Of a stretch of 64,000 nucleotides of DNA, positions 15,701-34,409 are shown in pieces. The stretch spans positions 56,203 to 120,202 of the forward strand of contig CACZKE010000007.1 in assembly GCA_902781705.1 (NCBI GenBank), given 5' to 3'. How positions within the stretch are numbered: position 1 is the first letter of the stretch; every line of letters begins with the position of its first letter. This DNA comes from an uncultured Bacteroidia bacterium (lineage in GTDB: Bacteria > Bacteroidota > Bacteroidia > Bacteroidales > UBA932). Below the pieces are notes generated by a model, which searched no databases, was not told the origin of the DNA, and worked only from the letters and a program-made list of their open reading frames with translations. The position numbers and the translations under genes are program-made.

Positions 15701-15713
15701 ACCGGCACTTATC

Positions 15714-17279: not shown

Positions 17280-17301
17280 TAAATAGTTGGTTATTATGGG
17301 G

Positions 17302-17335
17302 AAATACGGGAGCCGGGAGGTTCCCGTATTTTTTT
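17302..17335 (+). terminator. Intrinsic terminator after first SusCD operon
   Basis: A 10-bp stem AAATACGGGA / TCCCGTATTT with a roughly 10-nt loop and a run of seven T, 22 bp after the SusD stop. Confidence 0.88.
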
Positions 17336-17346
17336 GCGTCCACAAG

Positions 17347-17427
17347 GGTGGAAAGTTCTTCCGGAAAATTTTTCCCCGTCAAAAGAAAGTCTTTCCACCT
17401 GTCCTGAAAGCGGTCCGGATATCTTTG
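17347..17427 (+). promoter_or_regulatory. Promoter and candidate operator of second SusCD operon
   Basis: The -7 box TATCTTTG is at 17420-17427, 70 bp before the SusC ATG. A widely spaced inverted repeat, GGTGGAAAG (17347-17355) and CTTTCCACC (17391-17399), lies just upstream, the right arm abutting the -33 position. The same TTTCCACC core is found twice before the first SusC gene. A binding site for the HTCS is the likeliest explanation but is inferred. Confidence 0.55.
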
Positions 17428-17497
17428 TAACCGGATTAAACCCACAAAAACGCCGAAACACACAACCAATTTAATCAACTAATCAACAAAAGGCATT

Positions 17498-20400
17498 ATG
17501 AAAGGACTTTTCAGGAAAAGTTTGATGGCCTTCGCGGCCGTCCTTCTTGCCGGCTTGCCCGTCTTTGCCCAGAATCGGACGGTGTCCGGAACGGTCAAGG
17601 ATTCCAGCGGTGAGCCCGTCCCCGGAGCGGCCGTCATGGTCAAGGGGAACACCTCCATCGGCACCAGTACCGACGCGGAGGGTCTCTACACCCTGCCGGG
17701 TGTGCCCAACGGGGCCACCCTCATCTTCTCTTTCATCGGCATGGACACCCAGGAAGTCGCCGCGGGCAACCGCACGAAGGTGGATGTGGTGCTGAACGAA
17801 TCCGCCGAGATGCTCCAGGAAATGGTCGTCATCGGTTACGGTTCCATCAAGAAGGCCGACCTCACCGGTGCGGTCTCCGTCATCGACACGGACGACTACA
17901 AGAACAAGTCGAACACCTCCATCGCGGACGCCCTCCAGGGCCTCGCCGCCGGTGTGAGCGTGCGTTCCACGGGTGATCTGGGCGGCCTGCCCACCGTGCT
18001 CATCCGCGGTACCAGCTCCCTCACCGACAACACCCCGCTGTATGTGATCGACGGTATCCCGACCTCCAACAACATCGGTTTCAACGTGGATGACATCGAG
18101 TCCATCCAGGTCCTGAAAGATGCTTCCGCCGCCGCCATCTACGGCTCCCGTGCGGCGAACGGCGTTATCATCATCACCACCAAGCAGGGCGAGGCCGGCA
18201 AGGTCACGGTCAATTTCTCGAACCAGACCGCCGTCCAGTGGAACCCGCGGATGAAATTCGCCGACGCCAAGGAATGGAAGGAAATCCAGACCCGCATGAT
18301 CCAGGACGGTATCGACCGCGGCACTTCCGACCGCACCACCATCCCGAACTTCATGGGTGGCGACACCGACTGGCAGGACCAGTATTTCAAGACCGGTATC
18401 CAGCAGAAATACGACCTTTCCATCTCCGGCGGCTCCCGCGACGCCCGTTTCCGCGTCGCCTACGGCCACATGCAGAACAGCGGCGCCCAGGTGGGCCGCG
18501 ACATGCGCCGGGAGACCGTCTCCATCAACTCCACCCTCAAGAAAGGCATCGTCACCTTCGGCGAGAGCCTCCAGATGGGTCTGACCAACATGTACAACTG
18601 CGCGCCCTCCACGGGCGGACTGGGCGAGATCGTGGGCATGCTGCCTATCGTTCCCATCTATGATGAGAACGGCAAGCGCGGCTATGGTATCGGCAACGCC
18701 GAGACGGCCTTCACCACTTCCCACAACATCGTGGCCGAAGCCGATCCCGAGAAGAGCTGGTCCAAGCGCGAATTCCTCTATCTGCGCGGCAATGCCTGGG
18801 CGCAGGTCCAACTTCCCGTCAAGGGACTCTCCTACAAGCTGAACCTGGGCGCCAACATCATGGACAACCACACCCGTTCCTGGGAGACCGGCATCCATTA
18901 CGCCCTCAACTTCACGGACCTCCCGTCCTCCGCCACGGCCTCTTCCACCCGGAGCACCACGTACATCATCGAGAATACCCTCAACTACGACCGCGAGCTG
19001 GGCAAGCACACCATCAACGCCGTTCTGGGTCAGTCTTACCAGAACAACTTCTCCCAGAGCGCCAGCTCCGTCCGGGAGGACCTCATTTCCACCGCCTCCG
19101 GCATTTTCCTCAAGAACGTTTCCTCCGGTATCAACCTCAAGGAAGCCACCGGCACCACCAGCCAGAGCCGGCTGATCTCCTACTTCGGCCGGATCAACTA
19201 CTCCTATGACAGCCGTTACCTCCTCCAGGCGACGATCCGTGCCGACGGTTCCTCCCGCTTCGCCCCCGGCAAGCAGTGGGGCGTGTTCCCCTCCATGTCC
19301 GCCGGCTGGCGTATCTCGCAGGAAGACTTCTGGAATGTTTCCTGGATGAACGACCTGAAACTCCGCTACAGCTACGGCCGTCTGGGAAGCCAGAACATCG
19401 GCGACTACGACTGGATGTCCCTGGTGAACAACTATACCTCTTACCTGCTGAACGGCGACGCCGGCGGTGAAGTCCCCGGCCAGACCATCATGGCGCTCTC
19501 CAACATCGACATCTCCTGGGAAACCCTCGTCCAGCACAACATCGGTGTGGACATGGCCTTCCTGAACAACCAGCTCATGGTGACGGCCGAGTACTACATC
19601 AGCAAGTCCCAGGATTGCCTGTACAGCCAGCCCATCCTGAAAACAGTCGGTTCCTCTTCCGACCCGGTGGTGAACTCCGCCACCCTGACCAACCGCGGTA
19701 TCGAACTGTCCGTAAAGTGGCGCCAGAATATCGGCCGTGACTTCAACTACTCGATCGGCGCGAACTTCTCGCACAACGACAACGTCCTGAACGGCCTCGG
19801 CTACGGAATCGATTTCCGGGACGACGGCACCACCTATTCCCATGTGGGCCATCCGCTGGGCCTGTTCTACGCCATCGTGAGCGACGGCCTGTTCCAGAGT
19901 GACGAGGATGCCGCCAAGTATGTCAAGGACGGCAAACGCATCCAGCCCAACGCCAAGGCCGGTGACATCAAGTGGGTGGACTTCAACAATGACGGCCAGA
20001 TCAACAACGACGACCGCCAGATCCTGGACAAGAAGAGCCCCTGGCCCGGTCTCGCGGCTTCCCTGAACCTGATGATGGCCTACAAGGGTTGGGACATGCA
20101 GATCTCCGGTTTCGGCGAGTTCTTCAAGTGGGTCCGCAACGGCACCCGCGCCCAGACGGACGCCCTCAACACCTGGGCCCAGCGCCGCAGCGGCCTGGAC
20201 TGGTGGACGCCCACGAACAAGCACAACAATGTCTGGTATCCGCGTGAGTCCTATGGCTACACCGAGAACCAGCTTGGTTCCAGCGACCGCTGGCTCGAGC
20301 GCGGCGATTTCTTCAAGTTCAACTCCATCTCCCTCGGTTACAACTGGGAGCCGAAGGGCGCCGTGGGGCTTGTCATCAAGAACCTCCGTGCTTCCGTCAC

Positions 20401-20539
20401 GGCCCAGAATCTCCTGACCCTCACCAGCTATACGGGCTGGGATCCGGACTTCACGGGCGGCATCTTCACCCCGGGCAATGCCGGCAACACCATTGCCAAC
20501 CCTTACTCCGTCATCTTCGGTCTTAACATTACATTCTAA
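17498..20539 (+). CDS. SusC/RagA-type TonB-dependent glycan transporter (second pair)
   Basis: A 1013-residue outer-membrane transporter with signal peptide MKGLFRKSLMAFAAVLLAG (cleavage near VFAQ). A carboxypeptidase-regulatory-like domain spans about residues 28-100, then the signature QEMVVIGYGSIKKADLTGAV, a plug with DASAAAIYGSRAANGVIIIT, and a barrel ending in GLNITF. It is clearly related to the first SusC, but the barrel sequence differs enough to suggest a different oligosaccharide. Its SusD partner begins 5 bp after the stop. A promoter with a putative operator lies upstream. Confidence 0.93.
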   Translation: MKGLFRKSLMAFAAVLLAGLPVFAQNRTVSGTVKDSSGEPVPGAAVMVKGNTSIGTSTDAEGLYTLPGVPNGATLIFSFIGMDTQEVAAGNRTKVDVVLNESAEMLQEMVVIGYGSIKKADLTGAVSVIDTDDYKNKSNTSIADALQGLAAGVSVRSTGDLGGLPTVLIRGTSSLTDNTPLYVIDGIPTSNNIGFNVDDIESIQVLKDASAAAIYGSRAANGVIIITTKQGEAGKVTVNFSNQTAVQWNPRMKFADAKEWKEIQTRMIQDGIDRGTSDRTTIPNFMGGDTDWQDQYFKTGIQQKYDLSISGGSRDARFRVAYGHMQNSGAQVGRDMRRETVSINSTLKKGIVTFGESLQMGLTNMYNCAPSTGGLGEIVGMLPIVPIYDENGKRGYGIGNAETAFTTSHNIVAEADPEKSWSKREFLYLRGNAWAQVQLPVKGLSYKLNLGANIMDNHTRSWETGIHYALNFTDLPSSATASSTRSTTYIIENTLNYDRELGKHTINAVLGQSYQNNFSQSASSVREDLISTASGIFLKNVSSGINLKEATGTTSQSRLISYFGRINYSYDSRYLLQATIRADGSSRFAPGKQWGVFPSMSAGWRISQEDFWNVSWMNDLKLRYSYGRLGSQNIGDYDWMSLVNNYTSYLLNGDAGGEVPGQTIMALSNIDISWETLVQHNIGVDMAFLNNQLMVTAEYYISKSQDCLYSQPILKTVGSSSDPVVNSATLTNRGIELSVKWRQNIGRDFNYSIGANFSHNDNVLNGLGYGIDFRDDGTTYSHVGHPLGLFYAIVSDGLFQSDEDAAKYVKDGKRIQPNAKAGDIKWVDFNNDGQINNDDRQILDKKSPWPGLAASLNLMMAYKGWDMQISGFGEFFKWVRNGTRAQTDALNTWAQRRSGLDWWTPTNKHNNVWYPRESYGYTENQLGSSDRWLERGDFFKFNSISLGYNWEPKGAVGLVIKNLRASVTAQNLLTLTSYTGWDPDFTGGIFTPGNAGNTIANPYSVIFGLNITF

Positions 20540-20544
20540 GAGAT

Positions 20545-22296
20545 ATGAAGAGAATCATCACCATACTGTCTGTCGCCGCGGCCGCCGCGCTGCTGGCGCC
20601 CTCCTGCTCGAAGGATATGCTGCAGCTGGAAAACCCGAACTCCCTGAGTTCTTCGACAGCCTACACCTACGAATCCGACCTGGACGCGGCCCTTGTGGGC
20701 GTGTACCACGCTTTCAACGGCGGATTCTTCAACAGCGGCATGTCCATCATCTTCGGTTCCCAGTCGGACGAAGGCTACAGCTATTCCCCGGCCATGGACC
20801 TGGTGGATTTCGTCAGCTTCAAGTATCCGAATTACGACCAGAACTGGAACGTCACCCAGTGGAAGTGCCTGTACAACCAGATTGCCCGCTGCAACCAGGT
20901 CATCACCTATATTGAGAACGTGGAAGAATGGAAGGAATTCAGCAAGGAGCAGATCCTGGCCCAGGCCAAGGCCATCCGTGCCTGGGACTACTACATGCTC
21001 ACCATGCTGTACCAGCATCCGCCGTATGTGGACTACATAGCCCCGGCCGGCGACCAGCCCGCGCAGACGCCTTATGAGACCCTCTGCGAAAAGATCATCG
21101 AGGATGCCAAGTACGCCTACGACAACCTTCCGTCCGATTACCTTTCCGGCCCCTGGAAGGGCCAGTACCGCGTGACCAAGTGGTTCTCCGCCACCCTGCT
21201 GGGCCGGGTGAACATGAACAGCGGCAACTACGCCGAGGCCGCCAAGTGGTTCAAGGATGTCATTGACAACGGCAAGTCCGTCGGCGGTGAGAAGCTCGCC
21301 CTCGTGGATGACTATCTCTGGAACAGTGACGACGCCCATGAGAACAACAAGGAAGCCGTCTTCGAGCTCCAGTTTGCCAAGGGCAACGCCAACGCCGGTT
21401 ACTTCGCCGCTTACGGCTGGGGCTGGAACGACGGTGCCACGCCGGACCACCGCAACTGGAGATGGAAGCTCATGTGCCCGTCACCGGTGGGCTGGGGAGA
21501 CTTCTGCGCGGAGACCTGGCTGGTCTATGCCTTCAAGAACGAGAAGACCGTGAAGAACACTCCCCGCACCACCGCCGGTCAGTTCGACCAGCGCCTGGAG
21601 TGCTCCCTCTTCTACCTGGATATCTGGAAAGACTATCCCGGCCACGCCCAGTGGCAGTGGGGCGAAGGTTACGAGGAAAAGGTTGACGCCGGTGAACTGG
21701 AAGCGCCGGGATGGTACAACAACGGCAGTTACTGGACCGGGGACCGCGTATTCACCAACAAATACACCAACTGGTACGGCGGTGACTACAACGTGAAGAT
21801 CGCCGACAACGAGCCCACCAACGTGCGTGTGTTCCGCCTGGGTGAAATCCTGATGGACTATGCCGAGTGCCTGGCCCAGACCGGCGACCTTAAGGGCGCC
21901 ATCGACCAGATCGACATTGTCCGGCAGCGCGCCGGCCTGGCGAAACTCGCGGACCGCGAACCGATTCCGGCGGTCTGGACCAACCCGCTCACCGACGATG
22001 TGATCGACTTCAACAAGGACTACGGCTATGCCGCCATCAAGAGCGGGAACTATACGCTCGCCGACGTCATGAGCGTCATCGACCTCGAGGACATGAAGGA
22101 GACTTGCTACGACTCCGAGCGCAACGTGAACCTCCGCCGCTGGGGCGTCGGGGACACCGGTGGCGCTTTCTACAAGCGAGTGGCCGCCCGTTCCAGCAAG
22201 TACAAGAACCAGTTCGCCCCGCACAAGGTCTGGATCCCCATCCCGCAGTCCGAGGTCAAGAACAATCCGAACCTCGATCAGATCGAGGGCTATTGA
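20545..22296 (+). CDS. SusD/RagB-type surface glycan-binding lipoprotein (second pair)
   Basis: A 583-residue lipoprotein with lipobox APSC (Cys21). It has SusD hallmarks: MLQLENPNSLSSSTAYTYES at the mature N-terminus, the RCNQVITYIE helix, and the terminal pattern ERNVNLRRWG followed by KVWIPIPQSEVKNNPNLDQ. It is about 60 residues longer than the first SusD; the additional sequence is an aromatic-rich stretch around residues 290-420 (YGWGWNDGATPDHRNW, YWTGDRVFTNKYTNWY) that could extend the glycan-binding face. It is co-transcribed with the SusC gene 5 bp upstream and closed by a strong hairpin terminator. Confidence 0.92.
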   Translation: MKRIITILSVAAAAALLAPSCSKDMLQLENPNSLSSSTAYTYESDLDAALVGVYHAFNGGFFNSGMSIIFGSQSDEGYSYSPAMDLVDFVSFKYPNYDQNWNVTQWKCLYNQIARCNQVITYIENVEEWKEFSKEQILAQAKAIRAWDYYMLTMLYQHPPYVDYIAPAGDQPAQTPYETLCEKIIEDAKYAYDNLPSDYLSGPWKGQYRVTKWFSATLLGRVNMNSGNYAEAAKWFKDVIDNGKSVGGEKLALVDDYLWNSDDAHENNKEAVFELQFAKGNANAGYFAAYGWGWNDGATPDHRNWRWKLMCPSPVGWGDFCAETWLVYAFKNEKTVKNTPRTTAGQFDQRLECSLFYLDIWKDYPGHAQWQWGEGYEEKVDAGELEAPGWYNNGSYWTGDRVFTNKYTNWYGGDYNVKIADNEPTNVRVFRLGEILMDYAECLAQTGDLKGAIDQIDIVRQRAGLAKLADREPIPAVWTNPLTDDVIDFNKDYGYAAIKSGNYTLADVMSVIDLEDMKETCYDSERNVNLRRWGVGDTGGAFYKRVAARSSKYKNQFAPHKVWIPIPQSEVKNNPNLDQIEGY

Positions 22297-22359: not shown

Positions 22360-22392
22360 CCTATTTTTACGTATTGATTTGACCGATTGACC

Positions 22393-25300
22393 ATGAAGCG
22401 ATTTCTGCTCATCCTGACTTTGACCGCCCTGGTGCTTCCCGCCCGCGCCGACTGGGCCGGAGAGTTCCGGTACTATGTATATGGATCCGAACAGGGCCTG
22501 TGCGACGAATATGTCCTGAACACCTACAAGGACCGGAACGGATACCTTTGGGCCTGCACGTCCAACGGACTGGACCGGTTCGACGGAAACCGCTTCGTCC
22601 ATTTCAGTTCCCACTCGGCCGACGCGAGGACCCGGATCGAGAACGACTTCATCTACGGGGTCGCCGAGGATGGTAACGGCTGCATCTGGGCCGTCAGCAA
22701 TGCCGGACTCATGCGAATCAGTTGCAAGGAAGGAACGGTATCCTTCTCCAAGGACCTCTGGCAAGAGTCCGACCTGCTGACCTTGCCGATGAACGGCATC
22801 CAGGCCGACGGTGACCGCCTGCTCTGGGTCCTGCAGCGGGACGGACTGGTCGCCGTGGAACTGGATGAAAAGAGCGCGGTCACCCGGGTGGAGAAATATC
22901 CGGCTCCGAGCACATCCCTCCGCTACATGTCCGTGGGGGAAAACGTCATCTGGGTCGGTGGATTCGACGGCGTGTCCTGCTTCCGGAAAGGCCGGGCCGG
23001 TCAACTCGAGGCCGTACCGGGTCCGGAGAATCCCAAACTGGCCGACATCCGGGACGTTTCCACCGTCCTGATCCAGGGGAACTACCTTTGGATCGGTACC
23101 GAGGACGGGCTGTTCTGCTACGATGTCCGGTCCCGTTCCCTGACCACGTTCCAGCATGACCGGCAGAATCCGTCCTCCCTCTCCGACGATCACGTAACCT
23201 GTCTCGCGGCGGATTCCTCGGGCGATATCCTGGTCGGAACATCCCGGGGAATCGACCATTTCACCCGGGCCGGAAAATTCGGGCACATCACCCAGGGACG
23301 CCCACGCAAATCACTGAACACCAACTATGTAAACCATATCCTGGTAGATCGGGACGGTACGCTTTGGGTGAGTACGCTCGTGGGCGGCATCAACCAGATC
23401 ACGCCCAAAAACGTGATGGAAGAGGACATCCTGTCCGTGACCGAAGGGATTTCCAACATCGTTGCCTGCAACTATGAAGACCGCGACGGGAACCTGCTGA
23501 TGGGAATCCTGGGCAAGGGCCTGGGAATCCGCCGGGCAGGACAGGATCAGGTGGAAATCCACTCGCTCAAGGGAAAAGGCGGCCTGTCCCAGGAGGACAT
23601 CTTCGTCATCCGGCAGGACCACAACGGCGATTACTGGATGGCCAGCCGCAACGACGGACTGATCTTCCTCTCGCACCGGGATCTGTCCCGTCCCCGTTTC
23701 AAATCCTACCATACGGACAACTGCGGCATCGCCTCCAACCATATCTTCGACCTGGAATACGACCCGGTCCGCAAGGGAATCTGGTACTGCACCAACGAGA
23801 GCCTGGGATTCCTGGACATCGGACAGATGACCTTCCATCGCATCTGGCTGTCTTCCGAGACCGACTATGCGGCAAGGTTCCACTGCCTGTACCTGGACAG
23901 CCGCGAACGGCTGTGGGCAGGCGGATACGGCCTTTGCACGATAGACTTGAAACGGAATTCCAACCTGGACGGCACCGTCGACGTGGATTTCCGGCCGTCG
24001 CTTTCCGCCTCCGGCGACGCCCATTTGGAACGGATCACCTCCATCACCGAGTCACCGGACGGGAAAATCTGGGTCGGGTGCCAGGGCAACGGCGTCTTTT
24101 CCCTGGAGGAAGACGGTCATTTCGCGCCGATCCCGGTCCAGTACGGCCCCTTCCGGAGCCGCGTCACCAAGTTGATTCCCGACTCGTCCGGCGATATCTG
24201 GATCGGCACCACGGACGGCATCCTGTGTTACTCTCCCTCCCTCCGCCGGATGTCCAAGTTTTCGGAAGCCGACGGCCTGCCTTCCAACCACTGCTACATC
24301 GATTCCGGTTACCGGCTCTCCGACGGACGGATCACCTTCGGAACCACCAACGGACTCGTATTTTTCAACGCTCCGATCCAACGCCTTCACAGTACCGACA
24401 GGAAGGTCTTCATCACGGGATTGGAAAAGGAGGACGAATTCTCCCTGGGGGACATCACCCAGGTGGACATCTACCCGGACCATCCTTCCTTCAACATCCA
24501 TTATTCTGCGCTGGACCTCTCCAACCCGCGCAGCGTCCTGTACTCCTATAAGATTGACGGACTAGATACTGACTGGACGGTAAGTCCCGCAGGAACAGTA
24601 CGTTACAACAACCTTAAGCCCGGAGATTACACCTTCCGGGTGCGCTGCACCAATGCCGATGATACCTGGTCCACAGAAGAAACCCTCCTGAACGTCAACG
24701 TGCATCCGCGGTTCATCCAGACGCCCTGGTTCTGGGGACTGCTGTTCCTTACGCTCCTCTCGGGCATCCTGTACATGGTGTACCTGAATGCCCGGGCCGC
24801 CCGCATCAAGCAGCGTGAACTCTCTTCCGAAGTGGCGGAGAAGACCGCCGACCTCACCCAGGCCATGCAGGATATCCTCCGTTCCAAGGAATCTATCGAA
24901 GAGCAGAATCTCCTGCTGGAGGAACAGAAAGCCAAGCTGGAAGAGTATTCCGCCCGGATGGACCGGGCCAACAAGGAGAAGATGGCCCTGTACACCCAGC
25001 TCACCCATGAGTTCAAGACGCCCCTTTCCCTGATTCTCGGACCGGTCAGCGAAATGGCTGCGACCAACAAGGACGCGACCCTCGCCCCGGCCATCGAGAT
25101 CATCGACCGGAATTCCAAATACCTGCTTTCCCTGGTAAACCAGGTCCTTGACCTGAGAAGGGTGGATTCCGGAAAAGTGAAAATGCATCAGGAAAGTTTC
25201 AACATCGCCCGGCTGTCCGACATCTATGCCCTGGACTACGGAACCGTCCTGAAGGAACGGAACATCACCTTCGACACGGCGACGCGGATGGTCCACAAGC

Positions 25301-26493
25301 ACATCCTCTCCGACCGGGACATCATCAACAAGATCCTGTCGAACCTGATGTCCAATGCCGTCAAGCACACTCCGGCCGGCGGCCGGATCTCCCTCAGGAT
25401 GGCGCAGGTACCGCGGTCCGACGGTCAGATGATGCAGTACCTGTCCGTTTTCAACACCGGCAGCTACATCGAGCCGTCGGAACAGAAGAAGATCTTCGGC
25501 CTGTTCTACAAGATCGGTGACAAGCCCGGATATCCCACAGCCGGCATGAGCAGCAGCGGCATCGGCCTGTACCTGGTGCGCCAGCTGGTCACGGAAATGG
25601 GCGGTGAAATCCGCGTCAAGAGCAAGGAGGGCTGGGGAACGGCCTTCCGGGTCCTCTTCCCGGTCACGCTGGTGAACAGCAAGGCCGTGGAGGACCAACC
25701 CTACACACCGCCGGAAGATGAAAACCAGCCTGTCCTCCTGCTGGTGGAAGACAACGACGACATGCGCGCCTACATCAAGAGCGTCCTGTCGGACAAGTAC
25801 CATATCGCCGAGGCGGCGAACGGCGAAAAAGGCTTCGACCTCGCCAAGAAGATCACGCCGGATTTCATCATCTCCGACCTGATGATGCCGGTATGCGACG
25901 GCCTGCAGTTCTGCCGGATGATCCGCGCAGACAGTACCCTGAGCCACATCCCCTTCCTGATGCTTACCGCCCTCTCGAACGACAATGCCCGGCTGAGCAG
26001 CTACAAGGAGGGCGTGGACGCCTTCCTGGTGAAACCGTTCGACAAAGAGATGCTCCTCACCCGTATCGAGAACATCCTCAGCAACCGGCAGCAGCAGCAG
26101 CATGAGGTTTCCTTCGACCTCAGGAACGCCTATGCGAACGTAAATATCGAGCGATCCGACAAAGTGTTCATGGAAAACCTCCTGAACATCCTCAAGGACA
26201 ACTACACGAATCCGGAATTCAACGTTCCGCAGCTACAGTCCCTGATGTGCATGAGCATGACGCCTTTCTACAAGAAGATATCGGCCCTCACGGGTCTTAC
26301 CCCGGCCCTGTTCATCCGCCTGTACCGGCTCCAGACCGCGAAGAAGATGCTGGAGGACCATGCCGGCGACAAGGGCATCAGCATCTCGGAAATCGCCTAC
26401 ATGGTAGGGTTCAACGATCCCAAGTACTTCTCCAAGTGCTTCCAGAACCAGTACCACGTCCTCCCCAGTGCCATCCTGCAGGGAGAGGCATGA
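22393..26493 (+). CDS. Hybrid two-component system (HTCS) PUL regulator
   Basis: A 1366-residue one-protein two-component system. The ATG at 22393 gives a signal peptide (MKRFLLILTLTALVLPARA); a TTG two codons upstream is less likely. Residues about 25-690 are a periplasmic double beta-propeller made of repeats such as DRNGYLWACTSNGLDRFDG. A Y_Y_Y domain spans about 700-770, and a membrane helix about 777-799 (WFWGLLFLTLLSGILYMVYL). The histidine kinase has His872 in LTHEFKTPLSLI and an ATPase domain with GIGLYLVRQLV. A receiver domain has Asp1162 in DFIISDLMMPVCDG, and a C-terminal AraC-type HTH spans about 1256-1366. Such proteins bind a specific oligosaccharide in the periplasm and activate the adjacent PUL, here probably both SusCD operons and the arabinan-degrading genes. 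Confidence 0.95.
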   Translation: MKRFLLILTLTALVLPARADWAGEFRYYVYGSEQGLCDEYVLNTYKDRNGYLWACTSNGLDRFDGNRFVHFSSHSADARTRIENDFIYGVAEDGNGCIWAVSNAGLMRISCKEGTVSFSKDLWQESDLLTLPMNGIQADGDRLLWVLQRDGLVAVELDEKSAVTRVEKYPAPSTSLRYMSVGENVIWVGGFDGVSCFRKGRAGQLEAVPGPENPKLADIRDVSTVLIQGNYLWIGTEDGLFCYDVRSRSLTTFQHDRQNPSSLSDDHVTCLAADSSGDILVGTSRGIDHFTRAGKFGHITQGRPRKSLNTNYVNHILVDRDGTLWVSTLVGGINQITPKNVMEEDILSVTEGISNIVACNYEDRDGNLLMGILGKGLGIRRAGQDQVEIHSLKGKGGLSQEDIFVIRQDHNGDYWMASRNDGLIFLSHRDLSRPRFKSYHTDNCGIASNHIFDLEYDPVRKGIWYCTNESLGFLDIGQMTFHRIWLSSETDYAARFHCLYLDSRERLWAGGYGLCTIDLKRNSNLDGTVDVDFRPSLSASGDAHLERITSITESPDGKIWVGCQGNGVFSLEEDGHFAPIPVQYGPFRSRVTKLIPDSSGDIWIGTTDGILCYSPSLRRMSKFSEADGLPSNHCYIDSGYRLSDGRITFGTTNGLVFFNAPIQRLHSTDRKVFITGLEKEDEFSLGDITQVDIYPDHPSFNIHYSALDLSNPRSVLYSYKIDGLDTDWTVSPAGTVRYNNLKPGDYTFRVRCTNADDTWSTEETLLNVNVHPRFIQTPWFWGLLFLTLLSGILYMVYLNARAARIKQRELSSEVAEKTADLTQAMQDILRSKESIEEQNLLLEEQKAKLEEYSARMDRANKEKMALYTQLTHEFKTPLSLILGPVSEMAATNKDATLAPAIEIIDRNSKYLLSLVNQVLDLRRVDSGKVKMHQESFNIARLSDIYALDYGTVLKERNITFDTATRMVHKHILSDRDIINKILSNLMSNAVKHTPAGGRISLRMAQVPRSDGQMMQYLSVFNTGSYIEPSEQKKIFGLFYKIGDKPGYPTAGMSSSGIGLYLVRQLVTEMGGEIRVKSKEGWGTAFRVLFPVTLVNSKAVEDQPYTPPEDENQPVLLLVEDNDDMRAYIKSVLSDKYHIAEAANGEKGFDLAKKITPDFIISDLMMPVCDGLQFCRMIRADSTLSHIPFLMLTALSNDNARLSSYKEGVDAFLVKPFDKEMLLTRIENILSNRQQQQHEVSFDLRNAYANVNIERSDKVFMENLLNILKDNYTNPEFNVPQLQSLMCMSMTPFYKKISALTGLTPALFIRLYRLQTAKKMLEDHAGDKGISISEIAYMVGFNDPKYFSKCFQNQYHVLPSAILQGEA

Positions 26494-26608: not shown

Positions 26609-27646
26609 TCAAAGGTCCACCGTGGGCCAGCCGTCCGGGGTCCAGGTGATGTCGCAGACGAGGAGTTTCGAGCGGTATTCGTACTCGCTGTCATAGCCAT
26701 GCATGAACATGTAGTCCTTGCCGTCAAAGTTCACGACCGCGCAGTGGCCCACACCGGCGTAGTGGCCGTTGCCCTTGGCCACCACGGTACCGCCGCCGTC
26801 CATCAGGGATACGCCGTTCTTGTCGATATACGGTCCTGTAACCTTCTCGGAACGGCCGACAACCACGTTATACGTGCTGTTCTTGCCGCGGCAGCAGAGG
26901 TCATAAGAGACGAACAGGTAGTAGTAGTTCCCGTGACGGAAGATGAACGGAGCCTCCACGGCACCGTTGCCCGGGTCGAAGTCCGGACCGCGCGAGTCGC
27001 GCTTGATACCGTCATCCTTGCCGGCGATGTCCTTCGTCGTCCCTTCCGGACGGCGGCAGATCGGATACCACTCCTGCGGTTCGGCCATCTTGGTCATGCT
27101 CTCGTCCAGCTTGAACATCTTGATACCCCGCCAGAAGGAGCCGAAGCACAGCCAGCCGGTGCCGTTCTCGTCCACGATCATGTTCGCATCGATGGCGTTC
27201 CACTCGTCGCGGCCGGGGATGGACTCCACGATCATGCCCTGATCCTCCCACTTGAAATCCGGGGACTCGGGGTTCAGCGTCTTGTTCGTGGCGACGCCGA
27301 TGGCGGAGATGTTGCGGCCGAACACCGAATAGGAATAATAGATGTACCAGAGTCCGTTGTGATACTGGATGTCCGGAGCCCAGGGCATCCAGCGGAAGCC
27401 CTTGTCCGTGGCCCACTTCGGCGTCTCCGAAAAGACACGCGGCTCAATGCGCCAGGTCTTCATGTCGGTGGAGGACATGCAGCCCATGCCGGTCGTGAAC
27501 ACATAGTAGCGACCGTCACAGAAAGCGGCGACGGGATCGTGCGCGTCCGGATACTCGACGAGCGTACCCGGCTCGGGGCCGAACCGCTGGGCGGAGAGGG
27601 AAACCGTGACCAGGAGTCCCAGGACGGGGAGGAATTTCTTGAGCAT
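26609..27646 (-). CDS. GH43 endo-alpha-1,5-L-arabinanase
   Basis: A 345-residue secreted five-bladed-propeller glycosidase (signal peptide ending SLSAQ, residue 20). The family's three catalytic acids are visible: Asp37 in DAHDPVAAFCDGRYYVF (general base), Asp153 in NAIDANMIVDENG (pKa modulator) and Glu231 in GAVEAPFIFRHGNYYYL (general acid). Segments such as FGSFWRGIKMFKLDE, CCRGKNSTYNVVVGRSEKV and TGPYIDKNGV are typical of arabinan endo-1,5-alpha-L-arabinosidases rather than xylosidases of the same family. It would cut the linear arabinan backbone, periplasmically or at the surface. It converges on the HTCS gene and diverges from the GH54 gene. Confidence 0.92.
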   Translation of the reverse strand: MLKKFLPVLGLLVTVSLSAQRFGPEPGTLVEYPDAHDPVAAFCDGRYYVFTTGMGCMSSTDMKTWRIEPRVFSETPKWATDKGFRWMPWAPDIQYHNGLWYIYYSYSVFGRNISAIGVATNKTLNPESPDFKWEDQGMIVESIPGRDEWNAIDANMIVDENGTGWLCFGSFWRGIKMFKLDESMTKMAEPQEWYPICRRPEGTTKDIAGKDDGIKRDSRGPDFDPGNGAVEAPFIFRHGNYYYLFVSYDLCCRGKNSTYNVVVGRSEKVTGPYIDKNGVSLMDGGGTVVAKGNGHYAGVGHCAVVNFDGKDYMFMHGYDSEYEYRSKLLVCDITWTPDGWPTVDL

Positions 27647-27786: not shown

Positions 27787-27825
27787 GGATGCTTTCAAAA
27801 GGCATCAAACCAAACACTTTCCGAT

Positions 27826-30800
27826 ATGATCAAAAAACCGATCCTTTTCACGGCACTCGCCCTGGCACTGGCCACCCCGGCCACGATCGTGGCGGGCATC
27901 GCCCTTTCCAGCGGACCGGCCGCCGTCCCGGCTCGTCCGGAAGGCCCCTGCGACATCTATGCCGCCGGCGACACTCCTTGCGTCGCGGCCCACAGTTCCA
28001 CCCGCGCCCTGTATGCCTCCTACGAGGGCCCCTTGTACCAGGTGATGCGCCAGTCCGACCGGGCCACGCTGGATATCTGCGTCGTTCCGGCCAGCCCCGG
28101 CGATCCGGGCGGCTATGCCAATGCCGCCGCACAGGACGAGTTCTGCAAGAACACCACCTGCTGGGTGACGGTCCTCTATGACCAGTCCGGCAAGGAGAAC
28201 CACCTGTACCAGGCCCCGCGCGGCGCCTTCGTGGGTGCCGCCCTCGGCGGATTCGACACGATGCCCATCGCGGACATGGCCCCGGTCACCCTCATGGGCC
28301 ACAAGGTCTATGGCATCTTCTTCGTCCCGGGCATGGGCATGCGGCAGAACGACCCGCACGGCACGGCCGTGGATGACCAGGCCGAAGGCCAGTACTGGGT
28401 GATCAACGGTCACCACTACAACTCCGGCTGCTGCTTCGACTACGGCAATGCGGAGACCGACAGCCGTGATGACGGCGACGGCACCATGGAGACCACCTAC
28501 TACGGCAACCAGCCGCTGTGGTACCACGGCGACGCCCCGGGTCCGTGGATCATGACCGACCAGGAGAACAACCTCGTGGGCTGCGTGAACCCCGATCCGA
28601 ACGACAAGTACTGCGAGGGCCTTCCCAGCATCAGCTGGCGCTTCGTCACGGCGACCGCCGACGGCGAACCTCACCACTGGCGCTCCATGGGCGGCAATGC
28701 CCAGGGCGGCGAACTGATCACCATGTTCGACGGTTCCCGTATCCAGAACGACCGCAACAGCTACGATCCCATGCGCAAGCAGGGCGCCATCGTGCTGGGC
28801 AACGGAGGTGACAACAACAATTACTCCTCCGGTACCTTCTACGAGGGTGCGATGACCGCTCCGGACACCTTCCCGACCGTGGAGACGAACCAGGCCATCC
28901 AGGCCAATGTCGTCGCCGCCGGCTACGATGTCCAGCGCCTCGCCATCGGTGCGTCCGACAAGACCGCCACCCCGAACGGCCTGCAGACCTTCTCCCCGGG
29001 TTCCGTGGGCAACACCACCGTCTCCTTCGTGAACACCACCAAGGCCCCCATCAACGACCTGACGCTCACCATCGATGCCCCGAAGGGCTGGAAGGTGAAT
29101 GTCCTGGGCAGCAAGGAGACCGCGAAGAAGGTCGATTACGCCGTCCTCCCCGGCCAGACCGTCATCGCGAACTTCACCGTCACCGCCGGCTCCCGCGAGT
29201 ATAACGGCGACCTGACGGCGAAGGCCGCCTGGACCGCTCCGGACGGCAAGGCCTGGAACGAGACCGCCGTCGAGAAGGTGCGCAACGTCGCTCCCGTGAA
29301 GATCAACGAGTTCCGCGTCGCCGACGGCGTGAACAAGACCAACTCCTTCATCGAGCTGTACAACGCCTCCGACAAGGAAGTGGACATCGCCGGCTGGGAG
29401 ATCGTCCAGCATGGCGCCACCCTGCCCTACTTTTCCACCATCAAGGTCCCCGGCGGCACCAAGCTCGCCCCGAAGGCTTTCTATCTCCTCGGCCTCTCCA
29501 CCTCCGGCCTCGCCGTGGACGCCGCCAAGGGCGACAAGACCCTGTATGTGCGCGACGTAACCGGCATCCAGGCGGGTGACGAAATCACCATCGGCACCGG
29601 TGCCAACGCCGAGAAGCACAAGGTGGCCGTCGTCGTCAAGCACGAACCGGCGCCCGTGGAAGGCGGCGACTTCATGCGCCACTACGGCCGCGTGATAAAC
29701 GCCCTCGGCACCCCAACCACCCTGTGGCAGCCGCTGCCGGACGGTCCGGTGATCACGATCCCTGCCGGTTCCACCAGCGTTCCCGTGGACAACACCCTCG
29801 GTTTCAAGGTGGGCGCCAAGATGGCCATCGGGTACGGTGCGAAATATCCCGCCCCCGTCGCGAACTTCGAGAAATACGAGGTCGTGACCGTCACCAAGGT
29901 CGGCAAGCCCGGCACCCAGGCCTGGCTTGCCTATGACGCCAAGCCCGGCGACCGCAACATCAAGGTGTCCTCCGTGGAGAACATCAGTGTCGGCGACGTA
30001 ATCCGCCTGGACATCGACAGCAAGGGCCACGGCGTGGAATACGTGAAGGTCAAGAAGGTAGGCACCGCATCCGCCAAGAGCCCGGGCCGCGGACCCATGA
30101 CCCTCGAAGAGGCCGGCACCGGTCTTACCCTCACCAAGCCGCTCAAGTACGCGCACTCCGCCAACATGCCGTTCAGCTGCAACGGTACCGGCATCTCCTT
30201 CACCCCGGCGACGAAGTTCGACCACTCCAGCAACGAGCCCGTCCTCGCCCTCGTCTATGAGATCGTCCTCGAGGAAGGCCTCCAGCGCGACCATCCGGTC
30301 GACGAGGTCATCTGCGACCCGTCCGTCAAGACCGCCGGCTACCAAGGCGAAATCGCCCCGGACCAGCTCTTTGGCGGACCGGCCCTCGCCCGCATGGGCA
30401 ACATGACCCTCTACGATGCCGAAGGCCGCGTAGTGGACTGCCTCAACTGGGGTACCATCGTGGATCCGATGCTCGCCGAAGGTTTCCAGGGCCAGTCCGG
30501 CCTGGAGGAATACGGCAACTACATCCACCTCAAGGTGGAAAACGAGAACCGCGGCTGGGGACGCGATCCCAACGCGCCTACCCTGCTGAACCCGCACCTC
30601 AGCGCCGGCCGTTATCCGGATGGCGCCGACACCGACGACAACATGGTGGACTTCAAGTTCCAGCTTTCCACGAACCTCTACGAGCCCGCCAAGGCCGGTT
30701 CCAAGAAGATCACCATTACCGACACGCAGGGCCTCCGCATCGGCCACCTGTTCAACATCGGCTACGGGGATGACCTGGAGACCGTGATGGTGGCGACCAT

Positions 30801-30969
30801 CGACGGCCCGCGCACGCTCACGAGCACCGTCAAGTTCGGCGAATTCACCCGTGAGATCAAGACCACGGTCATCGACCTCACCCTGGGTGCTCCGCTGAAG
30901 AAGGACCACATCGCCGGCGCCTCCATCACCGACAACTTCCCGACCCCGGGCTATGCCAACTGCTTCTAA
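27826..30969 (+). CDS. GH54 alpha-L-arabinofuranosidase with NEW3, interrupted lamin-tail domain and repeated modules
   Basis: A 1047-residue secreted enzyme. The ATG at 27826 is chosen because a signal peptide follows (MIKKPILFTALALALATPAT); an upstream start at 27721 would add a non-exported leader. Residues about 41-370 are a GH54 (AbfB-type) catalytic domain: Glu247 in TDQEN matches the known nucleophile, Asp329 in GGDNN the acid/base. The three disulfides known from the Aspergillus enzyme are matched by Cys42/Cys52, Cys107/Cys112 and the vicinal pair Cys202-Cys203. About 390-482 is NEW3-like. A lamin-tail domain begins near 490 (VKINEFRV, FIELYNASDKEVDIAGWEI) and its closing signature GRYPDGADTDDNMVDF lies only near 930-945, with repeat modules between. 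It releases terminal arabinofuranose. GH54 is mostly fungal, so transfer is possible. Confidence 0.85.
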   Translation: MIKKPILFTALALALATPATIVAGIALSSGPAAVPARPEGPCDIYAAGDTPCVAAHSSTRALYASYEGPLYQVMRQSDRATLDICVVPASPGDPGGYANAAAQDEFCKNTTCWVTVLYDQSGKENHLYQAPRGAFVGAALGGFDTMPIADMAPVTLMGHKVYGIFFVPGMGMRQNDPHGTAVDDQAEGQYWVINGHHYNSGCCFDYGNAETDSRDDGDGTMETTYYGNQPLWYHGDAPGPWIMTDQENNLVGCVNPDPNDKYCEGLPSISWRFVTATADGEPHHWRSMGGNAQGGELITMFDGSRIQNDRNSYDPMRKQGAIVLGNGGDNNNYSSGTFYEGAMTAPDTFPTVETNQAIQANVVAAGYDVQRLAIGASDKTATPNGLQTFSPGSVGNTTVSFVNTTKAPINDLTLTIDAPKGWKVNVLGSKETAKKVDYAVLPGQTVIANFTVTAGSREYNGDLTAKAAWTAPDGKAWNETAVEKVRNVAPVKINEFRVADGVNKTNSFIELYNASDKEVDIAGWEIVQHGATLPYFSTIKVPGGTKLAPKAFYLLGLSTSGLAVDAAKGDKTLYVRDVTGIQAGDEITIGTGANAEKHKVAVVVKHEPAPVEGGDFMRHYGRVINALGTPTTLWQPLPDGPVITIPAGSTSVPVDNTLGFKVGAKMAIGYGAKYPAPVANFEKYEVVTVTKVGKPGTQAWLAYDAKPGDRNIKVSSVENISVGDVIRLDIDSKGHGVEYVKVKKVGTASAKSPGRGPMTLEEAGTGLTLTKPLKYAHSANMPFSCNGTGISFTPATKFDHSSNEPVLALVYEIVLEEGLQRDHPVDEVICDPSVKTAGYQGEIAPDQLFGGPALARMGNMTLYDAEGRVVDCLNWGTIVDPMLAEGFQGQSGLEEYGNYIHLKVENENRGWGRDPNAPTLLNPHLSAGRYPDGADTDDNMVDFKFQLSTNLYEPAKAGSKKITITDTQGLRIGHLFNIGYGDDLETVMVATIDGPRTLTSTVKFGEFTREIKTTVIDLTLGAPLKKDHIAGASITDNFPTPGYANCF

Positions 30970-30981
30970 ACCAAACATAAT

Positions 30982-32580
30982 ATGAACACACGAATGACAA
31001 CTCTGCTGGCAGCGGCTACTCTTCTCGCTGCTGCATGCGGACAGCGGGCCGTACAGCCGACGCATCCCGGTCCCATCACGGCCGGAGAACACACCCGCGT
31101 CAACACCACATATGGCACTGTCGAGGGTTACTTGGACAACGATGTCTATACTTTCAAGGGCATCCAGTATGCCCAGGCCGAACGGTTCATGCCTCCCACT
31201 GCTCCCGATCCCATCGAAGGAATCCGGATGTGCAAGCTCTACGGCCCCAAGGCCATGCAGGGGGAAAACCTCATTTGGAAAGACGATACTCAACGGGACT
31301 ATACCTTTGGCAACCAGTTTATCCTGGAGCCCATGAGCGAAGAAGGCTGCCTGGTTCTCAACGTTTGGACGAAAAGCCTGGACGACGGAAAGAAGCGTCC
31401 TGTCTTCGTCTGGATCCATGGAGGGGGCTACTCCTCCGGCTCCGCCCATGACCTGGCCTGTTATGAGGGGCGTTCCCTGGCTGACAAGGGCGACATTGTC
31501 ACCGTGAGCATCAACCACCGCCTGAACGTGCTCGGTTACATGGACCTGACCGCCCTGGGAGGCCGGTTCGAAAGTTCAGTGAATCTGGGCATGCAGGACA
31601 TCGTGAAGGCACTCGAATGGGTCCATGAAAACATTGCGAAGTTCGGTGGCGACCCGGACCAGGTCACGATCGGCGGACAGTCCGGCGGCGGTGGAAAGGT
31701 ATCCACCTTGATGGCCATGCCTTCCGCGAAAGGACTGTTCCACCGGGCCGTCGTCCAGAGCGGATCCACGCTTCGCGTGGGAGACCAGGAGTACTCCCGG
31801 AAGCTGGGCCTGGCCACCCTTCAGGAACTGGGCGTGAAACCAGCGCAGGCCGAGACAAAACTCCCGGAATTCACTTATGAGGAGCTCGTCGCAGCCGGCA
31901 ACCGGGCCTCCCGGAAGATTGCAACGGCCGGCATCCGGGGCGGTTTCGGCCCGGTCATGGATGGAAAGATTGTTGCGGAACAACCCTTCGATCCGGAAGC
32001 GTCCGAAATCAACCGTGGCATCCCGATGCTGATCGGAACGGATTTCAACGAGTTCACCTTCGACATCTCCCCGGAAAAGACCCTGGACGAAGTGAAAGCC
32101 GCTCTCACGGAGCGGATGGGAGAGGAAAAGGCAGTCCAGTTCATAGAGGAATTCCCGAAAGCTTTCCCGGACGAAGCCCCAAAGGCGATGCTGTATATGG
32201 ACACCAGATTCCGCGCCGGTGCCATTAAGCAAGCGGCGGCAAAGAGCCGCCAGGGCGGTGCAAACGTCTATGTCTACCAGTTCACCTGGAAACCGGAGAA
32301 CAACGCCCTGGGTGCCAGCCACGGCATGGAACTCCCGTTCATGTTCAACAATGTCGCCATTCAGCGGGAGATGACCGGATCCTCCGAAAGTGCCTACAAA
32401 CTACAGGAGGTTATCAGCAACTACTGGCTCGCTTTCATCAAGACCGGAGATCCGAATGTGGCCGGACAGCCTGTCTGGGAGCCCTATAACGAGGAAACCG
32501 GACCTTGCATGATCCTGGACAACACCTGCGTGATGAAATACAACCATGACAAGAAACTCCTGGAGATCGCCAATCCTTAG
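30982..32580 (+). CDS. Type-B carboxylesterase, lipoprotein (GQSGGGG elbow), GH54-linked
   Basis: A 532-residue carboxylesterase-family lipoprotein (lipobox AAAC, Cys19), 12 bp after the GH54 gene and therefore in the same transcript. Motifs are WIHGGGYSSGSA, Ser234 in GGQSGGGG, GTDFNEFTF and ASHGMELPFMFN. It is a full-length paralog of the genes at 9159-10763 and 10776-12386 across the PUL. Its third codon positions look less strictly C/G than in the adjacent GH54 gene, hinting at a different history or weaker expression. Pairing with an arabinofuranosidase suggests removal of ester groups carried by arabinose side chains; this is inference. Confidence 0.85.
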   Translation: MNTRMTTLLAAATLLAAACGQRAVQPTHPGPITAGEHTRVNTTYGTVEGYLDNDVYTFKGIQYAQAERFMPPTAPDPIEGIRMCKLYGPKAMQGENLIWKDDTQRDYTFGNQFILEPMSEEGCLVLNVWTKSLDDGKKRPVFVWIHGGGYSSGSAHDLACYEGRSLADKGDIVTVSINHRLNVLGYMDLTALGGRFESSVNLGMQDIVKALEWVHENIAKFGGDPDQVTIGGQSGGGGKVSTLMAMPSAKGLFHRAVVQSGSTLRVGDQEYSRKLGLATLQELGVKPAQAETKLPEFTYEELVAAGNRASRKIATAGIRGGFGPVMDGKIVAEQPFDPEASEINRGIPMLIGTDFNEFTFDISPEKTLDEVKAALTERMGEEKAVQFIEEFPKAFPDEAPKAMLYMDTRFRAGAIKQAAAKSRQGGANVYVYQFTWKPENNALGASHGMELPFMFNNVAIQREMTGSSESAYKLQEVISNYWLAFIKTGDPNVAGQPVWEPYNEETGPCMILDNTCVMKYNHDKKLLEIANP

Positions 32581-32615
32581 GCTTCCCCTGTAAAATCATT
32601 GGCTATTGGAAAGAG

Positions 32616-32655
32616 AAGAGCTTTATGCGAATTAACCACATAAAGCTCTTTGTCA
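32616..32655. terminator. Hairpin after the GH54-esterase operon
   Basis: A 12-bp perfect stem AAGAGCTTTATG / CATAAAGCTCTT with an 11-nt loop, 36 bp after the esterase stop. The plus-strand T run is short. On the minus strand the hairpin would follow the esterase remnant at 32657-32716, as a terminator of that lost gene would. Confidence 0.6.
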
Positions 32656-32656
32656 T

Positions 32657-32716
32657 TTAAAGATACCGTAAACCGGCACCAAGGTCGTTCTCCATGAGGG
32701 CACGGTCATTCTGCAG
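32657..32716 (-). pseudogene. Vestigial 3' end of a type-B carboxylesterase gene
   Basis: On the minus strand the bases encode LQNDRALMENDLGAGLRYL and a TAA stop, with an in-frame TGA just upstream. The segment NDRALMENDL matches the C-terminus of the carboxylesterase at 9159-10763 (HDRALMDYDL), and the DNA of the two stretches is also recognisably similar. No more of the gene is visible upstream. It is best read as the remnant of a deleted esterase that once faced the GH54-linked esterase. It is short, so chance similarity cannot be excluded. Confidence 0.45.
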
Positions 32717-32757
32717 TCAATTTGTGTAAAGGAACCATTTATTCTCGAATTATTCTA

Positions 32758-32765
32758 TATTTTTG
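32758..32765 (+). promoter_or_regulatory. -7 element for the sulfatase gene
   Basis: TATTTTTG matches TAnnTTTG and lies 21 bp before the ATG at 32787. No good -33 TTTG is seen at 19-22 bp. Confidence 0.5.
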
Positions 32766-32786
32766 CAAACTCAAGACTGATTTAGC

Positions 32787-34409
32787 ATGCCCTCGAACCT
32801 CCGATTAGCCCTCACCAGCGCCACGGCCCTCGCCGCGGCGGGCGCCTGCTCCCAGAAAGAGACGGAACCGCCGAAACCCCTGAACGTCGTGTACATCATG
32901 TGCGACGACCACTCGTACCAGACCATCAGCGCCTACGACCGGCGGTACATCGAGACGCCGAACATCGACCGCATCTCCGAAGAAGGGGCCCGGTTCACGA
33001 ACAGTTTCGTCGCCAACTCGCTCAGCGGTCCTTCCCGCGCCTGCCTGCTTACGGGCAAGCACAGCCACGCCAACGGCTTCACCAACAACGAGCACGGCAT
33101 CTTCGACGGCAGCCAGCAGACCCTTCCCAAACTCCTGCAGGCCGGGGGCTACCAGACGGCGATGGTGGGCAAATGGCATCTGGTGAGCGACCCCACGGGC
33201 TTCGACTACTGGGACATCCTCACCGGCCAGGGAGACTACTACAACCCCGTTTTCATCCGGGAAGGCGAACGGATCGTGCGGCACGGCTACTCCACGGACA
33301 TCACCACCGACGTGGCCCTGGACTGGCTGGATGGACGCGATACGGACAAACCGTTCTGCCTGTTCCTCCACTACAAGGCCCCGCACCGCAGTTGGATGCC
33401 GGACTTGCAGGACCTGGGGATGTATGACGATGTCACCTATCCCCTCCCCGAAACCTTCTACGATGACTACGCCACCCGGGAAGCCGCCGCGAAGCAGGAG
33501 ATGAGCATCCTGGCGGACATGAACGTGGTCTATGACCTCAAGATGGCCGACCGCGAAGGCGAGATCCACACTCCCGAGAACCCGGGTCTGGAGCAGTACG
33601 GGCGCGACCTGTACCGGCGGGACCTCGCCCCCGGCGAACTCGTCCCTGGCCGGATGGACGCGGAACAGCAGGCCGCCTGGGACGCCTACTACGATCCCAT
33701 CATCGAGCGGTTCAAGCGGGACAGCCTGTCCGGGAAAGCGCTGTATGAGTGGAAGTATCAGCGATATATGCGGGACTACTGCAGCGTTATCCATTCCGTG
33801 GACCGGAACGTGGGGCGGGTCTATGACTACCTCCGCGACCACGGCCTGCTGGAGAACACCGTCGTGGTCTATACTTCCGACCAGGGATTCTTCATGGGCG
33901 AGCACGGTTATTTCGACAAGCGGTTCATGTACGAGGAAAGTTTCCGGACGCCGCTGCTGGTGCGCCTGCCGGGGCAGAAGCGCCACCGGGACATCGACGC
34001 CTTCGTGCAGAACATCGACTATGCCCCGACCATCCTGGAGATGGCGGGCCTGCCGGTGCCGGAGGACATCCAGGGCGAGAGTTTCCTTCCATTGCTGGAG
34101 GGAGTCAAGCCGTCCAAGGTCATGACGACCGAGGGAAAAGGCTGGCGCAAGTCTCTCTACTACCATTATTATGAGTTCCCGGCCGAGCATTCGGTCCGTC
34201 GCCACTACGGGGTACGGACGGAGCGGTACTCCCTGATGCATTTCTACAACGACATCGACGAGTGGGAACTTTTTGACCTGCAGGAGGATCCGATGCAACT
34301 ACATAACCTCTACGGGGAGCCCGGGACGGAGGACATCACCCGGGAACTGCGTAAGGAACTGGAGCGCCTCCAAGTGCTGTACGACGACCCCATTATCAGC
34401 CGCAACTGA
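32787..34409 (+). CDS. Serine-type (anSME-dependent) S1 sulfatase
   Basis: A 540-residue type I sulfatase. The N-terminus is a signal peptide ending in AGAC (Cys21), a weak lipobox. The activation site is S-x-P-S-R-x4-T-G starting at Ser80 (LSGPSRACLLTG); Ser80 would be converted to formylglycine by an anaerobic sulfatase-maturing enzyme, the normal route in Bacteroidota. Calcium ligands are Asp40-Asp41 (IMCDDHS) and the later DQGFFMGEHG. The C-terminal block ERYSLMHFYNDIDEWELFDL is typical of the family. It has its own promoter and terminator, so it may be a neighbour rather than part of the arabinan PUL; arabinan is not normally sulfated. The substrate is unknown. Confidence 0.9.
   Translation: MPSNLRLALTSATALAAAGACSQKETEPPKPLNVVYIMCDDHSYQTISAYDRRYIETPNIDRISEEGARFTNSFVANSLSGPSRACLLTGKHSHANGFTNNEHGIFDGSQQTLPKLLQAGGYQTAMVGKWHLVSDPTGFDYWDILTGQGDYYNPVFIREGERIVRHGYSTDITTDVALDWLDGRDTDKPFCLFLHYKAPHRSWMPDLQDLGMYDDVTYPLPETFYDDYATREAAAKQEMSILADMNVVYDLKMADREGEIHTPENPGLEQYGRDLYRRDLAPGELVPGRMDAEQQAAWDAYYDPIIERFKRDSLSGKALYEWKYQRYMRDYCSVIHSVDRNVGRVYDYLRDHGLLENTVVVYTSDQGFFMGEHGYFDKRFMYEESFRTPLLVRLPGQKRHRDIDAFVQNIDYAPTILEMAGLPVPEDIQGESFLPLLEGVKPSKVMTTEGKGWRKSLYYHYYEFPAEHSVRRHYGVRTERYSLMHFYNDIDEWELFDLQEDPMQLHNLYGEPGTEDITRELRKELERLQVLYDDPIISRN

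Follow-up and report, generated by a model that had tools for sequence, protein, structure and literature searches.

Nested copies of a small beta domain appear to interrupt the lamin-tail domain of a bacterial GH54 enzyme

The window analysed here is a stretch of 64,000 nucleotides from an uncultured Bacteroidia bacterium (contig CACZKE010000007.1). It carries an open reading frame (ORF) of 1047 amino acids (aa) with similarities to glycoside hydrolase family 54 (GH54), and the question raised by this locus is how its long C-terminal region is built. The initial annotation described a lamin-tail domain (LTD) interrupted by four related repeats of about 45 residues. The reading favoured here, with a probability of about 0.8 and from sequence comparison, is that the C-terminal 560 residues form one LTD interrupted at two loops by self-inserted copies of a Rider-like beta domain. 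The unit would be a small, insertion-prone beta domain made of an N-terminal part (C) and a C-terminal hairpin (h), with further copies inserted at the C/h loop. Insert I would then be C1(C2(C3 h1)h2)h3 and insert II C4 h4. The features of the gene, with hidden Markov models (HMMs) as the source for most unit boundaries, are as follows.

27826..30969, plus strand: entire gene, GH54, NEW3 and interrupted LTD, 1047 aa, ATG start
27946..28926, plus strand: GH54 catalytic domain, residues 41–367 (PF09206; PDB matches 6sxt and 1wd3)
28993..29226, plus strand: NEW3 (NPCBM-associated) domain, residues 390–467 (PF10633, 28.5 bits, cut-off 24.4)
29287..29493, plus strand: LTD part a, residues 488–556 (PF00932; motifs ordered as in LTDs that are contiguous; the model matches lamin Ig folds)
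29506..29640, plus strand: C1, N-terminal part of the outermost unit of insert I, about residues 561–605 (unit HMM on its own locus, L001)
29752..29907, plus strand: C2, N-terminal part of the middle unit, about residues 643–694 (unit HMM; its pairing with h2 is the weakest of three)
29923..30063, plus strand: C3, N-terminal part of the innermost unit, about residues 700–746 (unit HMM; covaries with h1)
30115..30180, plus strand: h1, C-terminal hairpin of the innermost unit, residues 764–785 (hairpin HMM)
30184..30249, plus strand: h2, C-terminal hairpin of the middle unit, residues 787–808 (hairpin HMM)
30253..30318, plus strand: h3, C-terminal hairpin of the outermost unit, residues 810–831 (hairpin HMM; missing together with C1 in 2+2 paralogs)
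30331..30660, plus strand: LTD part b, residues 836–945 (motif order; modest coupling of 549–556 with 843–851)
30667..30801, plus strand: C4, N-terminal part of the single insert II unit, about residues 948–992 (unit HMM in L006; sequence)
30862..30933, plus strand: h4, C-terminal hairpin of the insert II unit, residues 1013–1036 (hairpin HMM in L006, E-value 0.02; sequence)
30934..30966, plus strand: LTD part c, residues 1037–1047 (where a paralog has no insert II, PDG..DF is followed nearly at once by this motif)

Locus L006, used for the two parts of insert II, is an orthologue with 94% identity to the protein studied here.

The PF09206 match to residues 41–367 is far above the curated cut-off (E-value 1.7e-117, 392.5 bits, cut-off 25). 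Two solved fungal GH54 structures, 6sxt and 1wd3, match the same domain with an E-value of about 1e-105. Residue 247 is Glu and residue 329 is Asp; both lie in the block aligned to the fungal structures and are taken to be the catalytic residues, as in the fungal enzyme AkAbfB. The complete catalytic domain with these two residues and the NEW3 domain behind it, both noted at first inspection, are borne out by Pfam and by the residue check. On this sequence evidence the encoded enzyme is a member of GH54, and alpha-L-arabinofuranosidase activity is predicted. An in-frame TTG is present upstream of the ATG start, at 27721. The first 40 residues lack Cys, and therefore lack a lipobox in that stretch. 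The N-terminus reads to us as a putative ordinary signal peptide that would direct export. A 1237-codon open frame lies antisense to the gene (window 27805-31518, minus strand) and is probably a by-product of composition.

PF00932, the LTD family, matches residues 488–580 (45.8 bits, cut-off 34.3), and it matches all 76 members of the alignment of relatives (A1) at an E-value of up to 0.1. The LTD motif pieces are located at 491–498, 508–524, 862–876, 928–943 and 1038–1047. The domain is thus not contiguous, the later motifs being present but displaced by the inserts. Contiguous LTDs are found in further proteins of the same genus (L088, L089) or order (L090, L091); by eye, they hold most of the motifs in the order of the present protein, within roughly 115–155 residues. 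This order is INE / FIELYN / ..G(W) / AKGxYxL / a strand with G.vvD / GR.pDG / ..kGaaN. Insert I is placed after FYLLG and insert II after PDG..DF. In paralogs of 820–836 aa, insert II is absent and PDG..DF runs almost straight into PTPG.N with a clean junction; between these same motifs the long forms hold about 95 (this protein) to about 165 residues. The contiguous LTDs and the clean junction uphold the initial view of an LTD interrupted by mutually related units. Covariation across insert I (95 sequences) gives a block score of 0.96 for 549–556 with 843–851, against a median of 0.10. An AlphaFold2 model of residues 480–1047, built from 76 sequences, has a predicted local distance difference test (pLDDT) value of 85.4 and a predicted template modelling score (pTM) of 0.84. 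Lamin Ig folds are among its Foldseek matches (probability up to 1.00), over about 61–76 columns, alignments that need not cover the displaced strands. A structure prediction from the single sequence (pLDDT 31) was set aside.

As judged from profile comparison, each repeat of about 45 residues is the N-terminal part of a predicted small beta domain, the C-terminal hairpin of which (about 20 residues) is found further on. The order in insert I is C C C h h h and in insert II C h. Profile-profile scores among the four C parts are 36–69, with a maximum of 20.4 in 120 column-shuffled comparisons, and among the four h parts 18.5–38. The relationship between the C parts thus exceeds chance. Other details of the first description needed revision. 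The four related units are real, but they are not simple repeats: each is split into C and h, and the evidence favours nesting for those of insert I. The motifs quoted for the LTD and the repeats exist, the repeats starting at 569, 649, 708 and 958; the positions first given differ from these by as many as about 9 residues. The first description had overlooked four hairpins, with starts near 764, 787, 810 and 1013–1015, which are taken here to be the C-terminal halves of the same units.

Units were counted in GH54 ORFs, of which 165 remained distinct when duplicates among 192 rows had been removed (the longest copy was kept and the present gene included). Of the 165, 160 bear units and five have no HMM match. 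In 148 of the 160, insert I has equal numbers of C and h, namely (3,3) in 110, (2,2) in 20 and (4,4) in 18. C and h were interleaved within one insert in none of the 160. The commonest form, 3+3, is found in records of several phyla at about 53%–64% identity to the present protein, and many residues within the units are nearly invariant. Insert II is present in 97 ORFs, as (2,2) in 48, (2,1) in 35, (1,1) in 11, (1,0) in 2 and (2,0) in 1 by HMM; the two-C forms that were inspected display two hairpins by eye. The protein studied here has one unit in insert II and most relatives have two.

Which C belongs with which h was approached in three ways. The short 2+2 paralogs, which lack insert II, also lack C1 and the last hairpin (h3) together. 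In L077 and L080, the extra C sits after C3 and the extra h ahead of the other hairpins. Mean-field covariation was calculated for insert I with 134 sequences (118 unique, effective number 75), the 4+4 forms entering with the innermost unit left out by the script. The block scores are 0.99 for C1-h3, 0.74 for C3-h1 and 0.58 for C2-h2, values reached by 0.04%, 0.5% and 2.0% of 25,768 blocks, respectively; the six non-nested pairings range from -0.28 to 0.23. The nested assignment has a sum of 2.31 (the five others, -0.02 to 1.28) and was top in all 25 bootstraps, unaffected by the pseudocount. The couplings of the contiguous unit C3-h1 transfer best to C1-h3 (0.68) and C2-h2 (0.47), followed by C2-h1 (0.39). 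A recursive A1-B1-C-B2-A2 pairing was found in insert I by order and counts, by co-absence and by covariation. Together the order, the co-loss and the covariation favour nested rather than tandem units in insert I, and do so more weakly in insert II.

Comparisons of fold suggest a possible likeness to the Rider domain of a Klebsiella phage K1 lyase. Foldseek matches the model to K1 lyase chains of 7w1c (probability 0.99–1.00, E-value 0.034–0.13), to 7w1d_H (0.97, E-value 0.15) and to the Klebsiella phage depolymerase 7vul (1.00, E-value about 0.001), and phage tail proteins are matched in BFVD. Around residues 700–748 there are sub-threshold matches to FliMN_C and to the K1-lyase Rider family. 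Rider (PF24149) matches 29 of the 76 aligned members at an E-value of up to 0.1 (best 0.0014), and FliMN_C (PF01052) 41 of the 76 (best 1e-9), where a relative may pass the cut-off. The proposed nested architecture would explain why domain libraries detect only fragments, such as an LTD match that runs into unit 1 and the weak FliMN_C and Rider matches. Searches of PDB sequences for the units with phmmer and with profiles gave nothing convincing, the best profile match being the phage tail tube 9n71 (E-value 0.0067), and three proteins tried against PHROG gave no match at an E-value of up to 0.01. Of two unit-bearing fragments searched by tblastn, neither matched a phage record, and one had a single match among plasmids. 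The units could not be assigned to a named family of carbohydrate-binding modules.

The same units occur in other host proteins, as found in Acidobacterial genomes searched with the C-terminal alignment or the C profile. A GH2-type protein (L231) has five C and six h by HMM and, by eye, six C (possibly a seventh) and seven h. A GH78-type protein (L232) has two C and three h by HMM, and three of each by eye. A protein of the Sde182 cellulose-binding type (L230) has eight C and seven h by a refined HMM, the eighth h coming from a hairpin pattern; this pattern was written after the sequences had been seen and it also matched outside hairpins (L230 561, L231 1546, L232 820). Read partly by eye, the L230 protein gives CCCCCChhhChChhhh, a word whose brackets balance and which has sibling units within its third level. 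Single units also occur. A phage-tail-type protein (L278) displays a contiguous C-h unit (h E-value 0.02) and so, weakly, does a pilin-like protein (L284, 1026-2036; h E-value about 3). Two further pilin-like proteins, L282 (832-1722) and L283, from the same Acidobacterial class sample as L284, display C alone by HMM; L282 and L284 have an N-terminal methylation motif of the pilin type. The contiguous units in L278 and, weakly, in L284 support C-h as the elementary domain.

Several observations weigh against the reading of one LTD with self-inserted Rider-like domains. The similarity of h2 and h3 (18.5) does not rise above the shuffled controls. Insert I is unbalanced by HMM in 12 of the 160 ORFs: four are cut by the end of the locus or contig, one is a piece of a broken gene (L021), and seven are uncut with one part undetected. 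Insert II is unbalanced by HMM in its (2,1), (1,0) and (2,0) forms (35, 2 and 1 of 97 ORFs). The unit HMMs were built from this same family, with a loose threshold for h (E-value up to 5), and therefore speak to order and number and not to independent discovery. In insert II covariation (73 sequences), the inner pair C5-h4 is in the top 2.7% of blocks and the outer pair C4-h5 was not seen; nesting in two-unit inserts II thus rests on order alone. Pairs between LTD parts a and b are not enriched among the top 45 couplings; a single block, near insert I, stands out. The Pfam test of joined LTD halves does not discriminate, since the right join reached 52.9 bits and seven wrong windows 44.0–50.7; a shorter version of the right window scored 48.9, the first half by itself 45.3 and a control join 42.8. 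The Foldseek TM-scores of the whole model are low (0.10–0.15), and the protein is below the Rider cut-off (14.9 bits, cut-off 27). FliMN_C/SpoA was rejected as a family for it, with 21.4 bits under a cut-off of 23.8 and a match to profile positions 14–55 of 73 only.

The units are proposed to share the fold of the K1-lyase Rider, and each insert would have arisen as copies were duplicated into an inner loop. In the K1 lyase the Rider protrudes from a turn of the beta-helix; it is reported to be beta-barrel-like, with two three-stranded sheets and a short helix, and to resemble the P22 coat I-domain in structure, and it aids stability and takes part in polysaccharide binding (PMC8822698). Because of this role, and because the other enzyme hosts are carbohydrate-related, the nests may extend from the LTD like arms with which the exported arabinofuranosidase holds on to glycan or the cell surface, or they may rigidify the enzyme. 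This functional suggestion, made in part in the initial annotation (carbohydrate or surface binding), is tentative, and its odds are somewhat below even. A broader proposal is doubtful as a whole, though not far-fetched. In it the module inserts itself under a bracket grammar, with C as the opening and h as the closing bracket, and only a balanced word would give a correctly built protein. The module would have spread across bacterial phyla and among extracellular enzymes that are not related to one another, reaching six levels or more, and it would serve as an arm in contact with glycan, the depth of nesting setting how far the arm reaches.

A serious rival to a functional reading, with a substantial minority chance of being correct, accepts the nested architecture and denies it a selected function: a small domain with close termini would tolerate re-insertion, and copies would accumulate neutrally. 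The number of units does vary in otherwise similar proteins (0–2 in insert II, 2–4 in insert I), and the same kind of unit is found in unrelated hosts. Selection is suggested, on the other side, by the predominance of 3+3 (110/160), its presence in several phyla and the many nearly invariant unit residues. It is quite improbable that the C parts are stacked together in one block and the h parts in a second, solenoid-like or swapped, with parallel pairs C1-h1, C2-h2 and C3-h3 and block duplication as the origin of C^n h^n. The C^n h^n order by itself, the likeness of the C parts and of most h parts, and the outer pair of insert II that is not visible in covariation would fit such blocks; the parallel assignment, however, has a sum of 0.41 against 2.31 for the nested one and came first in none of the 25 bootstraps, C1 is missing from the 2+2 paralogs along with h3 and not with h1, and the unit of L278 is contiguous. 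An LTD that ends early (488–580), followed by a separate multi-domain tail whose LTD-like motifs are due to chance or to another domain, would agree with the extension of the Pfam alignment into unit 1 and with the uninformative join test, but is very unlikely in view of the ordered motifs within single contiguous LTDs of the same genus or order, the direct run from PDG..DF to PTPG.N in paralogs, and the coupling of 549–556 with 843–851.

The statement that GH54 is chiefly fungal no longer describes the family fairly. A genome-contig scan confined to bacteria and archaea gave 206 pattern matches, of which 199 encode relatives (80 were kept), and bacterial groups I–IV of GH54 were described, together with an LTD-bearing combination, in 2021 (PMC8155123). 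The kept relatives are mostly from Bacteroidales; by record title there are also Planctomycetota or Phycisphaerae, Acidobacteria, Gemmatimonadetes, Verrucomicrobiia and KSB1. In the genus sample 37 of 300 genomes carry PF09206, as do 37 of 237 genomes of the family of one Acidobacterial record, 5 of 298 in a Phycisphaerae class sample, and 1 of 395 in the phylum sample, this one being the window's own genome.

Eight of the 37 GH54-bearing genomes of the genus have a long paralog (open frame 1040–1131 aa) and a short one (820–891 aa) within 6 kb (G537:C19, G676:C22, G636:C173, G618:C11, G498:C55, G526:C107, G609:C17 and G506:C16). The window's genome has a single GH54 copy. On a plasmid of Novosphingobium sp. 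P6W (L198, 4513-6546), a GH54-type C-terminal module occurs without the catalytic part, with four C in insert I by HMM; a gene for an ISKra4-family transposase lies upstream of its ORF, which starts within the LTD. In L021 (4050-10707), GH54-like sequence is spread over several ORFs and appears to be broken or frameshifted.

The neighbouring genes in the window are the following.

12533..22296, plus strand: two SusC/SusD-type pairs, upstream of the GH54 gene
22387..26493, plus strand: hybrid two-component sensor/regulator, upstream
26609..27646, minus strand: GH43 enzyme, a divergent neighbour, upstream
30982..34409, plus strand: carboxylesterase-family protein and sulfatase, downstream

From this family content the neighbourhood appears to resemble a polysaccharide-utilisation locus. 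A 424-aa ORF (window 34466-35740, plus strand) adjoins the sulfatase and has no Pfam match at an E-value of up to 1e-4.

Multi-level self-insertion of a domain is rare in print. Among the matches listed in open-licence PubMed Central, none describes nested units in a GH54 enzyme or another glycosidase, and the sole multi-level case among them is Si3 of cyanobacterial RNA polymerase. The present family offers many natural variants, with depths of 1 to 4 among enzymes that are alike in other respects and, elsewhere, perhaps of 6 or more; comparing them could show how nested domains grow, how split domains fold and what nesting depth is worth. Self-nesting could give secreted enzymes arms of adjustable size.

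Known systems resemble this protein in different parts. Fungal GH54 enzymes of the AkAbfB type (1wd3, 6sxt) share the catalytic domain but carry AbfB/CBM42 (PMC8155123), where the present protein has NEW3 and an LTD with nests. Bacterial GH54 with an LTD is already known: the proteins with RICIN, LTD, NPCBM_assoc and RPT1 in that publication probably have the same or a related architecture, and RPT1, we infer, may denote these repeats. They are given there as domains only, the available text making no mention of interruption or nesting, and RICIN, unlike in those proteins, was not found here by Pfam. The Rider of the K1 lyase (PF24149; 7w1c) aligns by profile positions 4–48 of 89 to C3, and it likewise sits in a loop of its host and is beta-barrel-like; it differs in being one protruding domain per chain, with no nesting mentioned in the available portion of PMC8822698.

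Recursive domain insertion is also known already, with hybrid-motif (HABAS) insertions up to six levels deep in Si3 (PMC13114784; a further record on this subject is PMC11515920). There, as here, a small domain is both insert and host, in A1-B1-C-B2-A2 patterns. Si3 belongs to an intracellular polymerase and is built from a domain of another name, whereas the present units are found mainly in carbohydrate-related proteins of several unrelated families. Variable depth within one enzyme family is a further difference of the GH54 family from Si3.

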